The translations under genes and the position numbers were made by a program. A stretch of DNA of 64,000 nucleotides, taken from positions 310,001 through 374,000 of the forward strand of contig NZ_BMOQ01000002.1 of assembly GCF_014647155.1 (NCBI RefSeq), in the 5' to 3' direction. The DNA is from Halarchaeum nitratireducens (GTDB lineage: Archaea; Halobacteriota; Halobacteria; Halobacteriales; Halobacteriaceae). Of this stretch, positions 15,891 through 28,351 are shown in pieces. The notes under the pieces are model-generated. The model was not told the DNA's origin and did not search any database. It saw nothing but the letters and a program-made list of their open reading frames with translations. How positions within the stretch are numbered: position 1 is the stretch's first letter; every line of letters starts with the position of its first letter.

Positions 15891-18800
15891 TCAGCGCGGT
15901 GGCGTTCCGAGGGCGTCGTCGAGGAGACGCCCGAGCGCCTTGCGCAGGTGTTGGTGGAAAGTCGGCCCGGCGACGCCGAGGTCGTCCGCGACGACCTCGC
16001 CCGTCGTCTCGCGCGGCCACTCGAAGTAGCCGCGGGCGTACGCCGTCCGGAGCGCCTGGAACTGTTTGTCCGTCAGGATCTCCGAGAGGTCGTGGCGGAG
16101 AGCGTTCGCCGCGGTGTCTCCCGCGGGCGCGCGGCGGCTGAGGTCCGCGCTCGGGAGGCGCTCGCGGATCGCGTCCGCGAACGCCCGGACGTCCGTCGCG
16201 GGGCTGACCGCGACCGTGATCGTCCCCCCGGTGGGCGTCGCGCGGAGGTGGCGGATCGTCGCGTCGCGGTCCGCGAAGGCGCTGAGGACCGGTGAGTCGG
16301 AGACGACGACGGCGAGCATCGACCCGTCCTCGTCCGCGCGAACGACCTCGGCGTCGGTGACGGCGACGCGTCCCGATGCGGCCTCGACGAGCTGCGTCGG
16401 TTCGCCCGCGACCGCCGCGTGGAGGAGCCACCCGCCGTCGTGCGGGGCGATGGACGTCACGTCGATCGCGCGCCCCGCCCGCTCCGCGAGCGCGAAGAGC
16501 GGGTCGTCGGTCGCGGCCAGCGAGAAGCGAAGTTCGAGCGATCGCCCGGAGAGGAGGGTCTCGGTGCGCTCGACGGCGCCGAGCGCGTCCGCGATGTGCG
16601 CGGCGAGTTCGGCGAGGACGTCGCGCTCCTCGCTCCCGAACGCACCGGGGACGCGCGCGTAGAGTTCGAGGAAGCCGTGGCACCGATCGCGGTGGCGAAG
16701 CGGGAGGCGGATCGCGCTCCGGAAGCCGCGGCGCATCGCCTCGTCGCGCAGACCCGCGAACGCGGGATCGCGCAGCACGTCGTCGACGACGGTTACGCGG
16801 TCGCCGCGCTGCGATCCCGTTCCACCCACCGATCCCGACTCCGTGCCCGCTGCACTCCCCCGTCCCTCGACACCGGCGCTCGCTCTCGCCTCCGTGTCGT
16901 CTCGCGCGCGCGTCGCCGCGAGCGGATGTTCGGTGCCGAGTTCGACGACGTGGTCGAGGAACGACTCGCCGGCGCCCGCCCACGCCTCGACGTGGGTCTC
17001 GCCGCCCTCGCGGCGGCCGATCCACGCGAGCGCGTAGCGGTCGTCGGCGGCGAGGTTCTCGCAGACGGCGTGCGTGACGCCGCCGCGCGACTCGGCGTCG
17101 ACGAGCGCGCCCGTGATATCGCGTATCACCCGGTTGAGACGGTTGAGGCGCTGGAGTTCGGCGTTGCGCTCGCGGAGTTCGTCTTCGGTCTCCCGGAGGC
17201 GGGCCTCGCGGGCGGCGCGTTCGAGCGAGCTCGTCGCGTACGTCACGATGAGGTCGACGAACTCGACGTCGCGGTCGTCGAAGGCGTCCGGGGTCGGCGA
17301 GGCGGCGACGAAGACGCCGTGCTCGCCGAGCGGGGCCGCGACGGCACTCCGCGCGCCCGGCCACGGTGCCCGCGAGGGGTCGTCCGCGAGGTCGGCGGCG
17401 ACCGTCGTCTCACCCTCGACGAACGCCTCCCAGACGAGCCAGCCGTCCGCGGTCGCGTCCACGACGCGGGGGTCGACGTCGCCCGTGACGGCCGAGGGGA
17501 CGAGTCGACCCGCCGCGTCCTCCCAGCGGTAGACCGCGAACCCGGGGGCGTTGACGGCGCCCCCGGCGGCGTCGACGATGGTCTCCGCGACGGCGTCGGG
17601 ATCTGTCGCGCGCGCCAGCTCGGCCGAGCGGGCGTGGAGCGTGGCGAGCACGTGTTCGCGGTCGCGGAGGGCCGCGGTCCGATCGAGGCGGTCGAGGGCG
17701 GCGGTCGCGTTCGCGGCGAGGATGCCGGCGAGCGTCCACGCGCGCGCCGCGTCGTCGTCGTCGGTCTCGTCGAAGCCGAAGACGAGGACGCCGTGGTCAC
17801 CGATCGGGAAAGCCGCGACGCTGTCGACGGGCCCCCGATCCCGGTCGTCGTCGATGCTCGCGGTCGGAACGCGTTCCGGGTCGCCCGAGCGGTACGCGCG
17901 CGGCACCGGAGCGTCTTCCGCGACGTCGTAGGTGAAGTCCTCGTCCTCGACGCCGTGGGTGGCGGCCGCCGGCACGAGCGTCGCGTTCGCGGGATCGTGT
18001 CGGTAGACGACGCCGTAAGCGTCCGGAGCGACGTACTCGGCGGCCTCGGTCACGGCGGCGGCGACGGCGTCCGGGTCGTCCGCATCGAGGAGGCGACTCG
18101 TCGTCCGCTGGAGGCCTTCGAGGCCGCGCTCGTAGCGCTCGCGCTCCGTGAGGTCGCGGCCGATCCCGGCGATCCCGACGACGTCGCCGTCGTCGCCGTA
18201 GAGGGGTGCGGCGCTGAGTTCGAAGGGTACGGGGTCGCCGTCGCGCGGGGCGAGCGGGAGGCGGACGGTGACTGACGCGCCGCCCCGGACCGTGTCGAGG
18301 GCGGCCGTCAGCGTCTCGTGTTCTCCCTCGGGAACGATGTCGTACACCGTGAGGTGCGAGAGATCGTCGTCAGCGTAGCCGGTGACGTCGCGCAGCGCGT
18401 CGCTCCAGTAGAGCGGCGTCCCCGACGTGTCGACGACGTAGACGACGTCGTCGAGCGCGCCGAGGACGGATTCGACGAACGCGAGGTGGTCGTCGAGGGC
18501 GCGCCGCCGGTAGTACGCGCGGACGGCGTCGGTCGCGGTCTCGGCGACGCGCTCGGCGAGCGCCGCGATGGACTCCTCGGCGTGCTTCGAGAGGTAGCTG
18601 GTGACGTCGGCGTCGATGGCCTCGCTCGCGACGCGCTCGCTCCCGACGCCCGTGAGGAGGACGAAGGGGAGGCGTTCGTCGAGTTCGCGGACGGCGTCGA
18701 GGAGTTCGAGGCCGCTCGACGCCGGCATCTCGTAGTCGCTCACGACGCAGTCGACCGTTCCGGCCTCGACGGCGTCGAGCACGCGCGCCGGGTCGGTCGT

Positions 18801-18911
18801 CGCCGTGACGTCGAGCGGCGTGTCGGTCCGTTCGAGCGCCGTTTCGAGGAGGTCGAGGTAGGCCTCGTCGTCGTCGACCACTATCAGGCGGGTCGGGGAC
18901 ACGTCCGTCAT
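15891..18911 (-). CDS. Bat-like multi-domain sensor/regulator (REC-PAS-GAF-GAF-GAF-HTH_10)
   Basis: A 1006-residue soluble regulator. A receiver domain fills about residues 1-125 (LIVVDDDEAY, phosphoacceptor region CVVSDYEMPASS, then LLTGVGS). A PAS domain follows (about 145-265, FVESVLGALDDVVYVVD), then three GAF-like domains (about 275-420, 430-585, 620-780). A short coiled coil (ERNAELQRLNRLNRVIRDI) lies before the last GAF. A BAT-type domain and a C-terminal HTH_10 (LTDKQFQALRTAYARGYF) complete it. The layout is that of haloarchaeal bacterio-opsin activator homologues, which couple redox, light or ligand signals to transcription. The start at 18911 excludes a longer shadow frame running into the next gene. 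Confidence 0.9.
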   Translation of the reverse strand: MTDVSPTRLIVVDDDEAYLDLLETALERTDTPLDVTATTDPARVLDAVEAGTVDCVVSDYEMPASSGLELLDAVRELDERLPFVLLTGVGSERVASEAIDADVTSYLSKHAEESIAALAERVAETATDAVRAYYRRRALDDHLAFVESVLGALDDVVYVVDTSGTPLYWSDALRDVTGYADDDLSHLTVYDIVPEGEHETLTAALDTVRGGASVTVRLPLAPRDGDPVPFELSAAPLYGDDGDVVGIAGIGRDLTERERYERGLEGLQRTTSRLLDADDPDAVAAAVTEAAEYVAPDAYGVVYRHDPANATLVPAAATHGVEDEDFTYDVAEDAPVPRAYRSGDPERVPTASIDDDRDRGPVDSVAAFPIGDHGVLVFGFDETDDDDAARAWTLAGILAANATAALDRLDRTAALRDREHVLATLHARSAELARATDPDAVAETIVDAAGGAVNAPGFAVYRWEDAAGRLVPSAVTGDVDPRVVDATADGWLVWEAFVEGETTVAADLADDPSRAPWPGARSAVAAPLGEHGVFVAASPTPDAFDDRDVEFVDLIVTYATSSLERAAREARLRETEDELRERNAELQRLNRLNRVIRDITGALVDAESRGGVTHAVCENLAADDRYALAWIGRREGGETHVEAWAGAGESFLDHVVELGTEHPLAATRARDDTEARASAGVEGRGSAAGTESGSVGGTGSQRGDRVTVVDDVLRDPAFAGLRDEAMRRGFRSAIRLPLRHRDRCHGFLELYARVPGAFGSEERDVLAELAAHIADALGAVERTETLLSGRSLELRFSLAATDDPLFALAERAGRAIDVTSIAPHDGGWLLHAAVAGEPTQLVEAASGRVAVTDAEVVRADEDGSMLAVVVSDSPVLSAFADRDATIRHLRATPTGGTITVAVSPATDVRAFADAIRERLPSADLSRRAPAGDTAANALRHDLSEILTDKQFQALRTAYARGYFEWPRETTGEVVADDLGVAGPTFHQHLRKALGRLLDDALGTPPR

Positions 18912-18970: not shown

Positions 18971-19975
18971 TCACGCGTCGTCGTCGACGCGCGCGTCGTA
19001 CCGGTAGTGCGCGGCGGGCGTGACGACCACGTACCGACCGCGCTCGGGGTCGTGGATGACGCGCGCGCCCGCGTCGATCCCGACGTCGACGAGGTCTTCG
19101 AGCGTCGCCGTCTCGACGACGAGCGCGTCGCCGGGGTCGGGGACGCGGCCGGTCGAGATCCACTCGTCGTGGCGGTGTCGGTGGACGGCCTCGGCGAGAC
19201 GCGGGAGCGCGGGCCGCCACGCGCGATACCACGCGGCGACGAGGAGGGCCGCGAGCGCGAGGAGTCCGCCGACGCCGGCGAGCGCCCACGGCGGCACGGG
19301 GGAGCTCCCGGGCACCGCGACGGTTCGCTCGACCGACCGATCGTGGCGTCGGGTGTCCGTGGCGGTCTCGACGTCGTACCACGCGTCGCCGAACGCGAGT
19401 GGCGCGCTCGCCGAGAGCGAGTCCGCGTAGCCCGCGACGCGGTAGGTAGCCGTGGTCCTGACGGCGACGTCGACGCTCCCGGCGTCGCCCGCGGCCGCCC
19501 GGTAGGCGGCGAGGCGTCCGCGGACGCGCTCGGTGTCGATCCGCGCGGTCGTGGTGACGTTCGCGGCGTCCGTCGTCGCGTTCGACCCGAGCGGCACGGT
19601 GCGCGTCCAGAACGTCTCGTCGTCCCGCGTCGCCGTGTAGACGAGCGTGACGTTCTGCGTGACGCGCGCGAACGACGCGTTCGCGCTCCCTGTCCGCGCC
19701 GTGAAGACGAGATCGGGCGCGGCGCGCGGGTAGACGACGGGGTTTTCGAGGACCGTCCCCGGGTCGTGGAGCGCGCCGTCGCCGGTCACGGTCGCGCGCC
19801 CGGACGTGTCGAGTGCGACGTGCTGGACGTTCGCGCGATCGGTGACGGTGGTCGTCGGGGGATGGGCGGTCGTCCACGCGGCCGCGCCGAACGCCGCGAG
19901 CGCGAGCATGGCGAGGGCGAGCGCGACGGCCGGGCCGCGCTTGGCGAGCACGTATCTGAGTCGGGGTGGGAGCAC
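18971..19975 (-). CDS. DUF5305-type membrane protein of SipW locus
   Basis: A 334-residue protein with an N-terminal membrane segment (about 14-36), a long beta-rich external region with many Thr/Asn motifs, a second membrane segment (about 230-252) and a cytoplasmic C-terminal domain. The topology and the neighbouring SipW-type peptidase match the DUF5305 family found in haloarchaeal SipW loci. Its task may be anchoring or capping of the exported proteins, an inference from context. It is last in a four-gene minus-strand operon and starts seven bases after the previous gene's stop. Confidence 0.75.
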   Translation of the reverse strand: MLPPRLRYVLAKRGPAVALALAMLALAAFGAAAWTTAHPPTTTVTDRANVQHVALDTSGRATVTGDGALHDPGTVLENPVVYPRAAPDLVFTARTGSANASFARVTQNVTLVYTATRDDETFWTRTVPLGSNATTDAANVTTTARIDTERVRGRLAAYRAAAGDAGSVDVAVRTTATYRVAGYADSLSASAPLAFGDAWYDVETATDTRRHDRSVERTVAVPGSSPVPPWALAGVGGLLALAALLVAAWYRAWRPALPRLAEAVHRHRHDEWISTGRVPDPGDALVVETATLEDLVDVGIDAGARVIHDPERGRYVVVTPAAHYRYDARVDDDA

Positions 19976-19981
19976 GGTGTG

Positions 19982-20473
19982 TCAGGTGGTAATCGTCGCG
20001 GAGCGGTCGGGTGCCGAGACGGTGACGCCGCGCTCGCCGGTCGCGCTGACGTCGAAGGCGAGCGCGTCGAGCGTCGTGTTCGAGGCGACGCGGACGTCCA
20101 CGGTCTCGCTCGCGCCGGACGAGAGGGAGACCGTCGCCGAGTCGCCGACGATGGAGCCGTCGACGACGAGGTCGGCGTCGTCGCGCGCGCTCTCGTGGAG
20201 CGAGACGGTCGCGCTCGCGGGCGCGTCGAGGGAGTTCGTGACGGTGACGAGGCGGGTCGTGTCGTTCGCCGCCACGGACGCACTCACGTCGAGGCCGACG
20301 ACGCCGCTCTCGTCGGCGGCGACGGGGAGCGCGGAGTCGCGGTCGACGGCGGAGGTGGCGAACGCGCCGGTCCCCGCGCCGCCGAGAGCGATGGCGACGA
20401 CCACGGCGATGGCGAGCGCGGCGGTGAAGGCGCGACCGGCGGGGCCGCGCGAGCGGGTTCGGTGCCGGCTCAC
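19982..20473 (-). CDS. Second TasA/DUF1102-like secreted protein (GTG start)
   Basis: A 163-residue protein. Its GTG start at 20473 overlaps the stop of the signal peptidase gene (GTGA), implying coupled translation. A basic N-terminus is followed by a hydrophobic segment and the site region GAFATSAVDRDSALPVA. This closely parallels SAFTTATVDRDASLNVA in the first gene of the operon, so the two are probably processed by the same SipW-like peptidase. The mature part is a beta-rich Thr/Ser domain with no cysteines. The DUF1102/TasA-like assignment is by signal type and neighbours. Confidence 0.75.
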   Translation of the reverse strand: MSRHRTRSRGPAGRAFTAALAIAVVVAIALGGAGTGAFATSAVDRDSALPVAADESGVVGLDVSASVAANDTTRLVTVTNSLDAPASATVSLHESARDDADLVVDGSIVGDSATVSLSSGASETVDVRVASNTTLDALAFDVSATGERGVTVSAPDRSATITT

Positions 20474-21471
20474 TCGAACCCCTCCGTGAGGAGGCGCCAC
20501 CAGCGCGATCGCGACCCGCGGAGGCGTTCGCGGCCGTCGATCAACGCCGCGAGCGCGATGGCGGGCGAGAAGGCGAGGGCCGCGGAGAGGGCGGCGGCGA
20601 GCAGCGGTTCGATGGCGTCGAGGCGGGCGAGGAGCGAGTGCGGGAGCACGGCAGGGTAGCGCCGGACCGCGACCTCGACGGGCACCGCGCCGGGATCGGT
20701 CGGGGCGCGGATCCGCCCGGAGACCGTCAGTGCGGTGGCGTTCCGGGAGACGGCGACGTCGCGCAGGCCCGCGGTGTGGACGACGCGGTCGGTCCACGGC
20801 CGCGACGGGACGGCGACGGTGTAGTTCAGCGCGTGCGACGATCCGGTGGCGACGGTCGGGATCGACCCGGTGCCGGTCGGGTTCTCGACGGCGAGGACCG
20901 TCTCCGCGTGCGTCACGCCGCCGAGCGCGACGACTCCGGCCGTCCCGACTACCGCGGCGAAGAGGAGCGGGACGAGGACCGAGCGGGCACTCGCGGGTCG
21001 TGACGGGCGACCTGTCGCGCGGCCGCGGCCGAGGAGCGCGGCGAGGCCGACGAGGCCGGCGAGGAGCGCGACGTGCTCGTGGACGAAGCGGACGGCGCGC
21101 CCGAGGTGCGGAATGACGACGGGCGCATCGTTCCACGTCAGCACGCGGCCGATGACGGCGTCGCGCGGGACCGGCGGATAGCCGGCGGCCTGATCGGCGA
21201 CGGGGTTGTTGTCGCCCTTCGTTCGGAAGCCGTCGGCGGTTTCGGCGACGACGCGGTGGGTCGTGTAGGCTCCGCGCGTCTCGCTCCAGAACGTCACGAC
21301 GTCGCCGGAGTCGACGTCGCCGGCGGGCACGAGCACGTAACCGTCGCCGATGCCGAGCGTCGGACTCATGCTGTCCGAGTAGACGTAGGACACCTGCACC
21401 GGCGATCCGGCCGGCGCGGCGACGAGCGCGGCGACGACGAGGAACGCGGCGAGGGAGACGGTGCGGAGCAC
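20470..21471 (-). CDS. SipW-type signal peptidase I with C-terminal extension
   Basis: A 333-residue membrane protein. The N-terminal membrane segment is followed by the catalytic Ser motif YSDSMSPTLGIGD, then GDVVTFW and AYTTHRVV, whose His is the general base expected in archaeal/ER/SipW-type S26B peptidases in place of Lys. FRTKGDNNPVAD is the usual box D-E region. After residue 150 it has further membrane segments and an external domain not found in a minimal peptidase. In Bacillus, SipW processes TasA fibre protein. Here it lies between two TasA-like genes, so it probably processes them. Confidence 0.88.
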   Translation of the reverse strand: MLRTVSLAAFLVVAALVAAPAGSPVQVSYVYSDSMSPTLGIGDGYVLVPAGDVDSGDVVTFWSETRGAYTTHRVVAETADGFRTKGDNNPVADQAAGYPPVPRDAVIGRVLTWNDAPVVIPHLGRAVRFVHEHVALLAGLVGLAALLGRGRATGRPSRPASARSVLVPLLFAAVVGTAGVVALGGVTHAETVLAVENPTGTGSIPTVATGSSHALNYTVAVPSRPWTDRVVHTAGLRDVAVSRNATALTVSGRIRAPTDPGAVPVEVAVRRYPAVLPHSLLARLDAIEPLLAAALSAALAFSPAIALAALIDGRERLRGSRSRWWRLLTEGFE

Positions 21472-21489
21472 GAAAACGGGTGAGGGCGT

Positions 21490-22017
21490 TTAGGCCGTGA
21501 CGTTCAGCGTCCCGGTGAGGGAATCGTTGCTCGTCTGGCCGGTCGAGTCGACGGTGACGACGACGTCGAGCGTCTCTTCCGCGGCGAGTTCGCCCTCGTA
21601 GCTAGTGTCCTCGCTCACGGTGGCGACGGTGCCCCCAGAGTTGTTGATGAGCTCGAACTGCACGTTGTCCGTGTTCGTGTCCGGGTCGGAGTTCATGTCG
21701 TACGTGACGTTGAACGTGTGGGCGTTCCCGAAGTTGTTCGTGATGGTGAACGCCGGCGAGGTCGCGTTCCCGATGGTCAGCGTCGAGTCCGGGTTGATGC
21801 CCGTGGCGGTACCGGTCGTGACGTCGATGGCGAGCTGGTCGCTGCTCGTCGTGACGAGGCTGGAGTCCCCGGCCTGCAGGCCGACGAGACCGCCGCTGTC
21901 CGTGGCGACGTTGAGGCTGGCGTCACGGTCCACGGTCGCGGTGGTGAACGCGCTCGCCCCGAAGGCGGAGGCGACGACGACGATTCCGAGTGCGATGGCG
22001 GCGAGTTTGAGTCGCAT
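21490..22017 (-). CDS. TasA/DUF1102-like secreted protein, possible fibre subunit
   Basis: A 175-residue protein with a SipW-type signal (hydrophobic residues 5-22, then SAFTTATVDRDASLNVA) and a mature beta-sandwich-like region rich in Thr, Asn and Asp (PAFTITNNFGNAHTFNVTYD). It is the first gene of the operon. TasA and its archaeal homologue AbpA form fibres by donor-strand exchange, in which the N-terminal strand after the cleavage site inserts into the next subunit. The conserved VDRD region immediately after the predicted site fits that, but fibre formation is an inference. Confidence 0.78.
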   Translation of the reverse strand: MRLKLAAIALGIVVVASAFGASAFTTATVDRDASLNVATDSGGLVGLQAGDSSLVTTSSDQLAIDVTTGTATGINPDSTLTIGNATSPAFTITNNFGNAHTFNVTYDMNSDPDTNTDNVQFELINNSGGTVATVSEDTSYEGELAAEETLDVVVTVDSTGQTSNDSLTGTLNVTA

Positions 22018-24190: not shown

Positions 24191-26707
24191 TCACCCCGAC
24201 GCCGGTGCGTCTCCCGACGCGTCGCCCCCCGTGATCCGGGCGTCGCCGCGGTCGACGTACCGCGCCCAGACGACGATGACCGGCGGGAGCACGATCAGCG
24301 ACGCGAGGTACGAGTAGAGGATCGAGAGTCCCGTGAGGAGGCCGAACTGGCCGAGCACGGGCGTGATGGCGATGGCGAGAACGCCGATGCCGGTGACGGT
24401 CGTCAGCATGCTCCCGGTCAGCGCGCCGCCGGTCCCACGGACGGTCCGCGTGAGCGCGTCGAAGACGTCCGCCGACTCGTCGTACTCCTCCGCGAAGCGG
24501 TGAACGAGGTGGGCGGAGTAGTCGATACCCAAGCCGATCCCGATGGAGAGGATCGTCCCCGTCAGGACGTTGAACGGGATGTCGAGGGAGCGCATCGTCG
24601 CCGCGATGCCGACGACGGTCACGGCGATCGGGACGAGGTTGACGATCCCGAGCGACGGACGCCCTTGAAGGAGGCCGTAGATCAGGACGAGGAACGCGGC
24701 CGTCCCGAGCAGGGCGAACACCAGACTGATGAACGCCGACTGGGCGATGACGTCCGAGACGGCCTTCAGCACGACGACGTTACCGGTCGCGGTTGCCTCG
24801 AAGCGGAAGCGGTCGGCGACGGCCTGCGTGTCGTCCGTGACGGCGGCCTGTGAGGCGTCGGCCTCGACCGCGTACTCGACGCGCGCCGCCGTGTAGTCGT
24901 CGGTGATGTAGTCGAGCGCCCGCTCGCGCGCGGGCGAGTCGAGCAGCGCGTCGTAGACCGTCTTCAGGTCGTCGTCGGGGATCCCGTTCGCGTTCCGGTC
25001 GTTGCGCGCGACCAGTCGCGCGAACGAGTCGTCCCGCTCCGCGTACGCGCGGATGACGGTGATGATGCTCGTCTCACGGGCGTGGCCGCCGTCGACGACG
25101 AAGCTGTCCGGTGGCCCGTCGCCGGCCTTCCACATCGACTCCAGCGCGCCGTCGTTCGTCAGTGATCCCTCGACGTAGACCGTCGTGAGGTCCTCCTCAC
25201 CCGTCTGGAAGCGCTCTTCGAGGAAGTTCGTCGTCTCCGTCACCGTGTAGTCGCGGGGCTGGAGGGCTTCGGGGAAGTACTCCAAGTAATCGGGGTTGTC
25301 CTCGGGCGGGAGGAAGGACTCCTGCGTGAAGCGGCTGTCGACGCCGGAGCCGTACGCGCCGAGCCAGGCGGTGCTGACGAGCAGGACGGCGAGGAAGAGC
25401 CTCGGGGCGATCCGGGCGATCCGGACGCCGACGGGGAGGAGCGTGCCGAGGAGCGACTCCTCGGAACCGAGCGGTCGCGAGCCGAATCGGGGGACGCCGA
25501 CGCGCTCGCGGAGGCCATCGGCGGACACCTTCGCGGCCGGGAGGAAGACCCCGAAGATGCAGAAGGTGAAGACGATCCCGACGGCGGCGACGAGCCCGAA
25601 GTCGCGGATCGGGCCGAGTTGGCTGCTCGCGTTCGCGGCGAAGCCGATGACGGTCGTCCCGGTGACGATGACGAACGCGAGGAGCAACTGATCGGTCGCC
25701 GTCCGCATCGAGTCGCGCACGCCGAACCCCTGGGCGCGCTCCTCGCGGTAGCGGTTGATCGCGTGGATGCCGAAGTCGATGCCGACGGCGAGGAGGAGCG
25801 GCGGGACGGCGATCAGCATCTGCGAGAACGCGATCCCGGCGTGCCCCATGAACCCGAACGTCCAGAGGATCGCCATGGCCAGCGAGACGATACCGAGCCC
25901 GAGGTCGATCGGATCGCGGTACGCGAACACGAGGAAGAAGAGGATGAGCACGACCGCCGCGGGGACGACGAGGGCGAGCGAGTCCCCGATCACCGCGGCG
26001 AACTCCTCGGAGAGGATGCCGCTCCCGAACACCGTGATGTCGCCGCCGACGGAGTCGACGATGAACACCGCGTGCTGTTGGATGTCGGTGAGAGGGCTGG
26101 AGCCGCTCGTCCCCGCGCCGTCCCCGGTCTCGGCGGAGAGGGAGTGCGTGACGGTCCCGACGGTCGCCGACGCGGAGGCGGAGCGGGCGTTGAAGTCCGT
26201 GCTGAGGCTCGCGGCGAACCCCGGGCTCGCCGCGGCCGCCGCGGCGATCGCGCCGTCGATCTCGCTTGGCGTCGCCCGCTCGACGGCGTCGATCTGTTCG
26301 TCGAGCGTCGTCGCGGAGGGGTCGAGCGTCCGAGCGACCGTCCGGGCGGCGCTCGTCGTGGCGGCGACCTGCATGTCGGGGTTCGACTGGAGGCGTTCCT
26401 GCGCGCGGAGCATCCGCAGGAGGGAGGGCTTCGAGAGGACGTTCGTTTCCGACTGGATCAGCTGCGTCGTTCCCGTGTCGGGCTCGAACGTCACGCGCTC
26501 GAAGTTGGCGTTGACGTCGGAGAGGGCCTCCTGTGCGGGGACGTCCTCGGTGAACTGACTGGTGCCCGAGGAGGTGTCGGAGCCGCCGAGGCCGAGGGCG
26601 AAGACGCCCGAGACGAGCAGGAAGACGACGATGACGGTCCGCGGTCGGTCCACGATCCAGTGGTCGACGGCGTCGATGTAGCGCTGAGCGTCGATCTGGA
26701 GATCCAT
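24191..26707 (-). CDS. RND/MMPL-superfamily exporter
   Basis: An 838-residue protein with about 12 membrane segments in two repeats, each with one long external loop, the standard RND plan. The sterol-sensing-like core motif occurs twice (GVDFGIHAINRYREERAQ after the first block, GLGIDYSAHLVHRFAEEY after the second). Archaeal members export lipids or hydrophobic compounds using the proton gradient. It starts four bases after the stop of the COG1361 protein, so the two are an operon and probably work together at the cell surface. Confidence 0.88.
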   Translation of the reverse strand: MDLQIDAQRYIDAVDHWIVDRPRTVIVVFLLVSGVFALGLGGSDTSSGTSQFTEDVPAQEALSDVNANFERVTFEPDTGTTQLIQSETNVLSKPSLLRMLRAQERLQSNPDMQVAATTSAARTVARTLDPSATTLDEQIDAVERATPSEIDGAIAAAAAASPGFAASLSTDFNARSASASATVGTVTHSLSAETGDGAGTSGSSPLTDIQQHAVFIVDSVGGDITVFGSGILSEEFAAVIGDSLALVVPAAVVLILFFLVFAYRDPIDLGLGIVSLAMAILWTFGFMGHAGIAFSQMLIAVPPLLLAVGIDFGIHAINRYREERAQGFGVRDSMRTATDQLLLAFVIVTGTTVIGFAANASSQLGPIRDFGLVAAVGIVFTFCIFGVFLPAAKVSADGLRERVGVPRFGSRPLGSEESLLGTLLPVGVRIARIAPRLFLAVLLVSTAWLGAYGSGVDSRFTQESFLPPEDNPDYLEYFPEALQPRDYTVTETTNFLEERFQTGEEDLTTVYVEGSLTNDGALESMWKAGDGPPDSFVVDGGHARETSIITVIRAYAERDDSFARLVARNDRNANGIPDDDLKTVYDALLDSPARERALDYITDDYTAARVEYAVEADASQAAVTDDTQAVADRFRFEATATGNVVVLKAVSDVIAQSAFISLVFALLGTAAFLVLIYGLLQGRPSLGIVNLVPIAVTVVGIAATMRSLDIPFNVLTGTILSIGIGLGIDYSAHLVHRFAEEYDESADVFDALTRTVRGTGGALTGSMLTTVTGIGVLAIAITPVLGQFGLLTGLSILYSYLASLIVLPPVIVVWARYVDRGDARITGGDASGDAPASG

Positions 26708-26710
26708 CGA

Positions 26711-28351
26711 TCACTCCCGCCGGCGCCGCCAGAGGACGAACGCGGCGATGGCCACGACGAGCACGACGCCGCCGATCAGGGCGATCGGGGGGCCGCCGCC
26801 GGACGACTGGACGACGGTGACGGGGACCGTGTACGTCTGCGAGACCTCGGTGTCGCCGTCCGGCAGTTCGTACTGGAAGTCGAACGAGACGGGATAGCGT
26901 TTTTCGAGCGCGCTCCCGCCGGCGCTCAGGGCGATGGTGAACTCGTCGGTCTCACCGGGCGCGAGCGACGGGACGATGCCCTCGTCGTCGTCGCTTCCGA
27001 GCGGGTCCCGAACGAACGCCTTCGCCTCGACGTTCGTCAGCGGTTCGTCGCCGTTGTTCGTCACGCGGACGGTGAGCGCGCGCGATCCGCCCGCTCGGAC
27101 CGTGTCGTTGGCGACCGTGACGACGAAGCGGTCCCGCTGGGCACCGATCTCCGCGTTCGTCGTCAGGCCGTCGCTCCGCTCCACGTCGCCGCGCTCGGTG
27201 CGGTATTCGACGGTGAGGTTGAACTGCTGGACGCTCGCGCTGGCGGCGTCGCTGACGGCGACGGCGTACGCCACGGGCGCACGCTCGCCGGGCGCGAGGT
27301 CACCGATGGCGTACTCGGGTGAGTCGACCTGGACGTTCGGGTTGCTGGACGCGAACCGAACGACCGGATCGCGGACGGGGTCGGGGCCGGTGTTGACCAC
27401 GGTGGCCCGGAGCGTACCGTCCTCGCCGACGCGCAGCGACGCCGAGACGTTCCGGAGGGCGAATCGCTGCTCGTCGCGGGGGTCGACGCCGACGTTCAGC
27501 GTCTCCGAGGTGCGCGCGATCCCGTTGTGGTCGGTGTAATCGACCGAGAGGTCGACGGTGTACTCGCGGAGCGCGGCGTCGTCCGCGAGCCCGACCACGT
27601 AGTCGATCGTCCGGCGCTCACCGGGCTCCCACGCACCGAGTTGGGCGGTCGAGCTCGCCGACCCGGAGCCGAAGGTCAGTTCGTCGCTCCGCGAGGTCGC
27701 CGTCGCGCTCGCCTCGCTCGCCGCGCGGCTCCCGACGTTCTCGACCGTCACGGAGAGCGACCCCGTGGAGCCGATCTGCGCGCTCGTCGAGCGGTTCACG
27801 ACCGCGAATCGGGCCTGGTCGCGGACCCGGATCGTGACGTACTGCGTCTCCTCGCGCTCGAAGTCGCGGTACTCGGCGCCGTACGTGTCGTAGCTCACGC
27901 CGCGCGTGTACGCGTAAGAGAGCGTGACCGGAACGCGATACGTGCCGGGTTCGGCGTCGTCCGAGACGGTGATACCGATCGGGTCGACGGGCGACGTCCC
28001 GGTCGGGACGTTCCCGACGCCGACGGTACCGGTGTTCACCTCGATGGGTGCCGAGCCGGCCCGGACGTCGACGGTGAGCCCGCGGGCCGTCGTCACGCGC
28101 TGTTCGTACTGGGAGGGACCGCCCTGGTCGACGTCGCCGCGATTCGAGATGCCGAGGCGGAGTTCGGCCTCGGTGCCGGGTTCGAACTCCTTCGTGTTCG
28201 TGAAGACGTCGAGTTCGGGTTGGCCGATGACTTGCCCGGAGTTCCCCCCCTGTTGTGCACCGACGGGTGCGACTCCGGCGACACTCGACCCGAGGAGGAG
28301 ACAGACCAGGAACGCGCCGAGGAGGCCAGTTCGGGGGAAGCGACTCGCCAT
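26711..28351 (-). CDS. COG1361-type secreted beta-domain protein with C-terminal anchor
   Basis: A 546-residue protein with a Sec signal peptide (residues 10-33, ending VGAQQ). It has three to four CARDB/NEW3-like immunoglobulin-type domains (for example RLGISNRGDVDQGG, VTVENVGSRAASEA, VVNTGPDPVRDPVV, RVTNNGDEPLTNVEA). A C-terminal membrane helix ends in basic WRRRRE. It is tethered outside the cell and lies directly upstream of the RND exporter, a pairing seen repeatedly in archaea. It may act as an external adaptor, which is an inference. Confidence 0.85.
   Translation of the reverse strand: MASRFPRTGLLGAFLVCLLLGSSVAGVAPVGAQQGGNSGQVIGQPELDVFTNTKEFEPGTEAELRLGISNRGDVDQGGPSQYEQRVTTARGLTVDVRAGSAPIEVNTGTVGVGNVPTGTSPVDPIGITVSDDAEPGTYRVPVTLSYAYTRGVSYDTYGAEYRDFEREETQYVTIRVRDQARFAVVNRSTSAQIGSTGSLSVTVENVGSRAASEASATATSRSDELTFGSGSASSTAQLGAWEPGERRTIDYVVGLADDAALREYTVDLSVDYTDHNGIARTSETLNVGVDPRDEQRFALRNVSASLRVGEDGTLRATVVNTGPDPVRDPVVRFASSNPNVQVDSPEYAIGDLAPGERAPVAYAVAVSDAASASVQQFNLTVEYRTERGDVERSDGLTTNAEIGAQRDRFVVTVANDTVRAGGSRALTVRVTNNGDEPLTNVEAKAFVRDPLGSDDDEGIVPSLAPGETDEFTIALSAGGSALEKRYPVSFDFQYELPDGDTEVSQTYTVPVTVVQSSGGGPPIALIGGVVLVVAIAAFVLWRRRRE

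Follow-up and report, generated by a model that had tools for sequence, protein, structure and literature searches.

The window examined here, a stretch of 64,000 nucleotides from the archaeon Halarchaeum nitratireducens, carries a four-gene operon on its minus strand (positions 18971-22017) that encodes two exported proteins, Pil1 and Pil2, a SipW-type signal peptidase and a membrane protein of the DUF5305 family. An initial annotation, made from the sequence, had described four minus-strand genes with overlaps or short gaps and had proposed that they produce a peptidase-processed surface fibre. The coordinates and strand proved exact, and the spacings calculated from them are, from Pil1 to the DUF5305 gene, 18 bases, -4 bases (an overlap) and 6 bases. 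Reasoning by analogy with characterized systems, we consider that the operon probably builds a thin, SipW-processed surface pilus whose subunits would polymerise by donating a strand to one another.

Gene order and distribution of the operon

The arrangement recurs well beyond this genome. We surveyed 391 genomes of the order and read the gene order at the 30 best-scoring peptidase loci, 23 of which carry Pil1-SipW-Pil2-DUF5305 on one strand; a further four show Pil1-SipW-Pil2 within the short stretch examined, and the remaining three deviate. Named genomes with the full order belong to Halarchaeum, Halospeciosus, Haloarcula amylovorans, Halobellus clavatus, Haloferax massiliensis, Halomicroarcula rubra, two Halorientalis, Halolamina pelagica and two uncultured Halobacteriales. 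This recurrence across loci and genera indicates that the four-gene arrangement did not arise by chance, and it answers the question, raised with the fibre proposal, of whether other haloarchaea share it. Of 376 good genomes, 288 have a peptidase that matches the profile at E 1e-25; since strong Pil1 orthologues (E ~1e-28 or better) are found in only ~27 of the 391, the operon is widespread but patchy. A scan for sigma-70-style promoters, which uses a model ill-suited to archaea, found nothing.

Table 1. Genes of the operon and the adjoining regulator, with the evidence for each assignment
Feature	Positions in window	Strand	Evidence
Pil1, putative major pilus subunit, 175 aa	21490-22017	minus	Taf-type pilin homology, AlphaFold2 beta-sandwich, AbpA fold match
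SipW/Sec11-type signal peptidase, 333 aa, GTG start	20470-21471	minus	TIGR02228 above cutoff, invariant catalytic residues
Pil2, second exported subunit, Pil1 paralogue, 163 aa, GTG start	19982-20473	minus	hhalign to Pil1
DUF5305 membrane protein, 334 aa, GTG start	18971-19975	minus	PF17231 profile match
REC-PAS-GAF-GAF-BAT-HTH_10 regulator, directly downstream of the operon	15891-18911	minus	domain search

Family, fold and processing region of Pil1 and Pil2

Pil1 consists of a signal peptide (residues 1-23), a predicted N-terminal donor strand (~24-40) and a beta-sandwich (~45-175). Comparison of its profile with haloarchaeal Taf-type proteins, including those of a second cluster in the same genome, gave an hhalign probability of 99.5% (E 9e-23) over ~150 columns. 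The Pil1 family profile also reached the solved 'Pilin' structure 9P0A (chain 9p0a_C) at E 5.8e-6, and a Taf protein of the second cluster reached the same structure at E 5e-12. Fourteen of 34 Pil1-family members match the NCBIfam TafE family below its cutoff, and Pil1 of the window scores 31.1 bits against the TafE equivalog NF052522, under the curated cutoff of 155. These profile comparisons place Pil1 among the haloarchaeal Taf-type pilins as a distant member.

The names that the initial annotation had given to the exported proteins, TasA-like and DUF1102-like, did not survive at the sequence level. No Pfam family matches Pil1 or Pil2 of the window; PF12389 (TasA/camelysin) gives no match to either even at E up to 1, and none anywhere in the genome. 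Compared with 22 TasA-locus sequences from Bacillaceae, the Pil1 and Pil2 profiles reached hhalign probabilities of 0.1-1.6%, a negative result of only moderate weight because this TasA set is shallow (Neff 2.2) and includes one wrong-frame sequence. The DUF1102 family, PF06510, matches neither window protein and 2 of 34 Pil1 homologues.

The AlphaFold2 monomer model of Pil1, made from 34 sequences, is a beta-sandwich whose predicted local distance difference test (pLDDT) scores lie at 74-97 by block from residue 41 and exceed 90 for most of residues 81-160 (overall mean 79.7), while residues 19-36 are disordered. A Foldseek search with this model against 350,542 chains of the Protein Data Bank (PDB) returned no match below 1e-3, and the best fold was AbpA (7ueg_A; E 1.3e-3, probability 1.00, template modelling (TM) score ~0.40, root-mean-square deviation (rmsd) 18.6). 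The rest of the top ten included p24 GOLD domains, the Sulfolobus thread (7pnb, 3.6e-3), FimA and the Pyrodictium cannula. The AbpA bundling pilus is a relative of TasA. Thus, by sequence the exported proteins fall into families with no TasA relation, and a modest link remains in the predicted fold of Pil1; the AbpA fold and the 9P0A profile match both lend support to the proposed peptidase-processed surface fibre.

The processing regions of the two exported proteins are nearly identical (SAFTTATVDRDASLNVATDSGGLVGL in Pil1 and GAFATSAVDRDSALPVAADESGVVGL in Pil2), as had been pointed out, although the strict A-x-VDRD motif proposed for both fits Pil1 alone, Pil2 having S-A-VDRD. Across the Pil1 family, mean pairwise identity is 51% in the stretch 24-40, 39% in the body and 32% in the signal peptide. 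The conservation of this stretch and its disorder in the monomer model are compatible with a donor-strand role.

Two further features of Pil1 deserve mention. It contains five N-glycosylation sequons against 4.0 expected from composition, a count that is uninformative, so that sequons were dropped as an indicator of pilin glycosylation. Pil1 of Halarchaeum looks Sec-type, whereas the orthologues at four other loci (L077, L078, L081, L082) start with an RR-type, Tat-like sequence (MRRRTLIA, MQRRTVIA); it is possible that the export route switched within one operon family.

Pil2 is a paralogue of Pil1 by profile comparison (hhalign 97.8%; 95.3% for the mature parts alone) and is not a Taf protein by the curated cutoff. 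It is shorter, lacks ~30 residues that Pil1 has, and begins with a strongly basic segment. Its orthologues carry additional domains, namely malectin and CBM35 in one genome (G057, locus L048) and a lamin-tail domain in Halorientalis (L063), and others have longer extensions without a recognized family. Since Pil2 is a minor paralogue with exchangeable binding domains, these architectures suggest an end-of-fibre subunit, most simply a tip adhesin.

The signal peptidase, the DUF5305 protein and the neighbouring regulator

The peptidase matches the S26 fold family PF10502 and passes the cutoff of the NCBIfam archaeal signal peptidase I family TIGR02228 (62.8 bits, cutoff 51.85). Ser34, His72, Asp87, Asp93 and Pro277 are invariant in 40 homologues, and the nearest fold found by Foldseek is Sec11 of the human signal peptidase complex (7p2q, E 2.6e-6). 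Judged by these residues, the enzyme is of the archaeal and endoplasmic reticulum type, with a Ser/His/Asp arrangement in which His replaces the bacterial Lys. Its score against the Bacillus SipW equivalog NF046067 (32.9 bits) lies under the curated cutoff of 190. The initial description of a SipW-type peptidase with catalytic Ser and His holds, with S34 and H72 as the residues concerned.

That description also included a large extra C-terminal region, which is real and retained in all 40 aligned homologues, including the peptidases of Taf-type clusters and of Lederbergia. The core (~1-130) is followed by a transmembrane segment and an outer beta domain of seven strands (186-273); then come a Y[PF]x[VI]LP motif with the invariant Pro277, helices with a transmembrane segment (278-310) and a basic tail. 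With pLDDT mostly at 85-96 in the predicted structure, the C-terminal region is modelled as a conserved, membrane-held beta domain. We considered this domain and the outer part of the DUF5305 protein as degenerate pilins, but profile comparison gave nothing significant for either (4.2% and below), and the idea stands at most as a structural possibility.

The product of the fourth gene was correctly assigned to DUF5305 (PF17231, 112.9 bits, cutoff 29). The layout read from its sequence is a transmembrane segment, an outer beta region, a second transmembrane segment and a cytoplasmic domain, and the outer part contains four N-glycosylation sequons against 1.3 expected. The role of anchor previously proposed for this protein is too narrow. 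Because the cytoplasmic domain is the best-conserved part (mean pairwise identity 40%, against 28% outside), anchoring by itself does not suffice, and the protein is unlikely to be a mere anchor. DUF5305 also pairs with a peptidase carrying the C-terminal domain in Taf-type clusters, the second cluster of the genome among them, and in Lederbergia (1.8e-12). At one further locus (L046, 1310-5128; identical to L056), the DUF5305 protein has an added acidic, repetitive cytoplasmic tail of ~900 residues.

In most named genomes a homologue of the REC-PAS-GAF-GAF-BAT-HTH_10 protein lies next to the operon, though not always in the same position, and this protein is probably the regulator of the operon. 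In a second copy of the operon in Halospeciosus flavus (L064, 7402-8576; also L045), Pil1 is followed by an open reading frame that fuses residues 1-119 of the peptidase, its core, to the regulator's HTH end, which looks like an internal deletion that took out the outer domain, Pil2 and DUF5305. Upstream of the operon in the window (24191-28351) lies a large membrane protein of RND/MMPL appearance beside the gene of a secreted protein.

A putative donor-strand pilus and its relation to known systems

We propose that Pil1 and Pil2 are exported and that the dedicated peptidase would cut each of them in front of F-x-[TS] in the conserved motif. Cleavage would free an N-terminal beta strand, in Pil1 approximately FTTATVDRDASLNVATD, and Pil1 would then polymerise, each subunit inserting this strand into the open beta-sandwich of the next in the manner of AbpA, TasA and the thread. 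Pil2, with its exchangeable C-terminal extension, would sit at an end of the fibre, where it most likely serves as the tip adhesin. The outer beta domain of the peptidase and the outer part of DUF5305 may hold newly cleaved subunits at the membrane, pass them on and keep the base of the fibre attached, the cytoplasmic domain of DUF5305 could couple assembly to the cell interior, and the neighbouring regulator probably controls expression. These steps are modelled on the TasA fibre, which forms by donor-strand exchange (PMC9674648), on TapA, which donates its N terminus and cannot accept a strand (PMC10151520), on the thread (PMC9715654) and on the sipW-bsaABCRSD operon of Clostridium perfringens, with its SipW-dependent filaments and two-component system (PMC7395162).

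Several results weigh against this proposal. Pil1 and Pil2 show no sequence match to TasA in the PF12389, Pfam and hhalign comparisons, the last made with the shallow TasA set, and the match of the Pil1 model to AbpA is modest in E value, TM score and rmsd. Comparison of the C-terminal domain of the peptidase with pilins gave 4.2% probability, which is not significant, and the fimbrial matches of the whole peptidase in Foldseek (DaaE, DraE, AfaE and BPSL1626, E 0.013-0.15) are weak and were not assigned to that domain. Moreover, because Pil2 is absent between the peptidase and DUF5305 genes at three loci (L083, L097, L123), it may not be essential.

The same material can be read in other ways. 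Pil1 and Pil2 could be processed surface proteins that do not polymerise, acting as monomeric or short-oligomer adhesins or as a coat held near the S-layer by DUF5305. No polymer was observed, the Pil1 monomer is mostly confidently modelled on its own (pLDDT above 90 for most of 81-160), and the extensions of Pil2 are partly of carbohydrate-binding type. However, Pil1 is homologous to a solved pilin, its best PDB folds prominently include archaeal fibres and fimbrial subunits, and the N-terminal strand is its most conserved part, so that we regard this explanation as improbable. The position of Pil2 is less settled: the retained N-terminal donor motif recalls TapA, a strand donor that is not an acceptor (PMC10151520), the absence of ~30 residues of Pil1 could mean a different acceptor site, and its basic N terminus and the adjoining peptidase gene would likewise suit a base or initiating subunit. 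The exchangeable malectin, CBM35 and lamin-tail domains are better suited to an outward-facing adhesin, which leaves a basal Pil2 as a tentative option.

Two alternatives concern the membrane proteins. The outer domains of the peptidase and DUF5305 might sense subunits, with the cytoplasmic domain of DUF5305 signalling to the regulator and so switching the fibre or biofilm state by feedback. The conservation bias of DUF5305 toward its cytoplasmic part and the usually adjacent regulator agree with such a role, as do the histidine kinase-like and response regulator genes in the Lederbergia module, the two-component system of the C. perfringens sipW operon (PMC7395162) and the reported influence of Bacillus subtilis SipW on matrix gene expression (PMC13082335, citing Terra 2012). 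Against this, the DUF5305-peptidase pair also occurs in clusters without the regulator (on contig C7 a DUF7344 gene is present instead) and Pfam detected no known signalling domain in the DUF5305 protein; a sensing unit therefore seems doubtful. It is rather unlikely that the peptidase is itself an assembly machine, its outer beta domain serving as a pseudo-subunit that takes or gives the first donor strand at cleavage, and DUF5305 providing the second half and the cytoplasmic link. In that event, a single protein would couple cutting to polymerisation, acting as an 'usher' in cells that lack an outer membrane, and many SipW-dependent fibres of archaea and of some bacteria would be served by the same pair.

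The literature searched gave no account of the assembly or anchoring of SipW-dependent donor-strand fibres in haloarchaea, and nothing was found in it on Taf fimbriae or DUF5305. The operon offers a small and widespread test case, with one subunit, a paralogue whose binding domains can be exchanged, and two membrane proteins. These two, the peptidase with its outer domain and DUF5305, remain linked throughout haloarchaea and in at least one genome of the Bacillaceae. Should their role as a platform hold true, candidate assembly factors would be named for a large class of biofilm fibres, both archaeal and bacterial.

The putative pilus has close parallels in Taf fimbriae (TafA, TafC, TafE, TafF; 9P0A), with which it shares homologous exported subunits and the same [GS]AF[TS]xxxxxR processing motif, and the genome's own Taf-type cluster likewise has a C-terminal-domain peptidase and a DUF5305 gene. 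In contrast to Taf fimbriae, the operon of the window has no TafF/DUF1102, rhomboid-like or DUF7344 genes, and its Pil1 signal is Sec-like, not RR-type. The Taf-type cluster in question (L010, 736-8254; contig C7, ~62.7-70.3 kb) contains DUF5305, the peptidase, a rhomboid-like membrane protein, a TafF/DUF1102 protein with a CARDB domain, two TafE-like proteins, a divergent DUF7344 gene and another Taf-like protein. An equivalent module in the bacterium Lederbergia panacisoli (L067, 3044-9068) comprises a Pil2-like protein, DUF5305, histidine kinase-like and response regulator genes, a Pil1-like (DUF1102) protein and a peptidase with the outer C-terminal domain.

Among the other systems, AbpA of Pyrobaculum (7ueg) provides the best fold for Pil1, a beta-sandwich subunit with an N-terminal strand, but it has no detected sequence similarity to Pil1, the TM score is modest, and donor strand and bundling, known for AbpA, are at most putative for Pil1. 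The thread of Sulfolobus (Saci_0406, 7pnb), a donor-strand fibre made via signal peptidase I, is the third-best fold for Pil1, with no sequence match found and a different gene cluster (PMC9715654). The tapA-sipW-tasA and sipW-tasA/calY systems of Bacillus resemble the operon in having exported subunits with their own SipW-type peptidase and A-F or A-Y at the processing site; the operon differs from them in lacking a PF12389/TasA or TapA match, in the long outer C-terminal domain of its peptidase and in the added DUF5305 protein. The C. perfringens sipW-bsaABCRSD group resembles it in make-up, with a SipW-dependent extracellular filament, accessory exported proteins and a regulator, and the type of regulator differs (PMC7395162). 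The operon most likely encodes a SipW-dependent pilus of Taf/AbpA type, a kind of system already known, of which the four-gene set and the outer domain of the peptidase are new variants.

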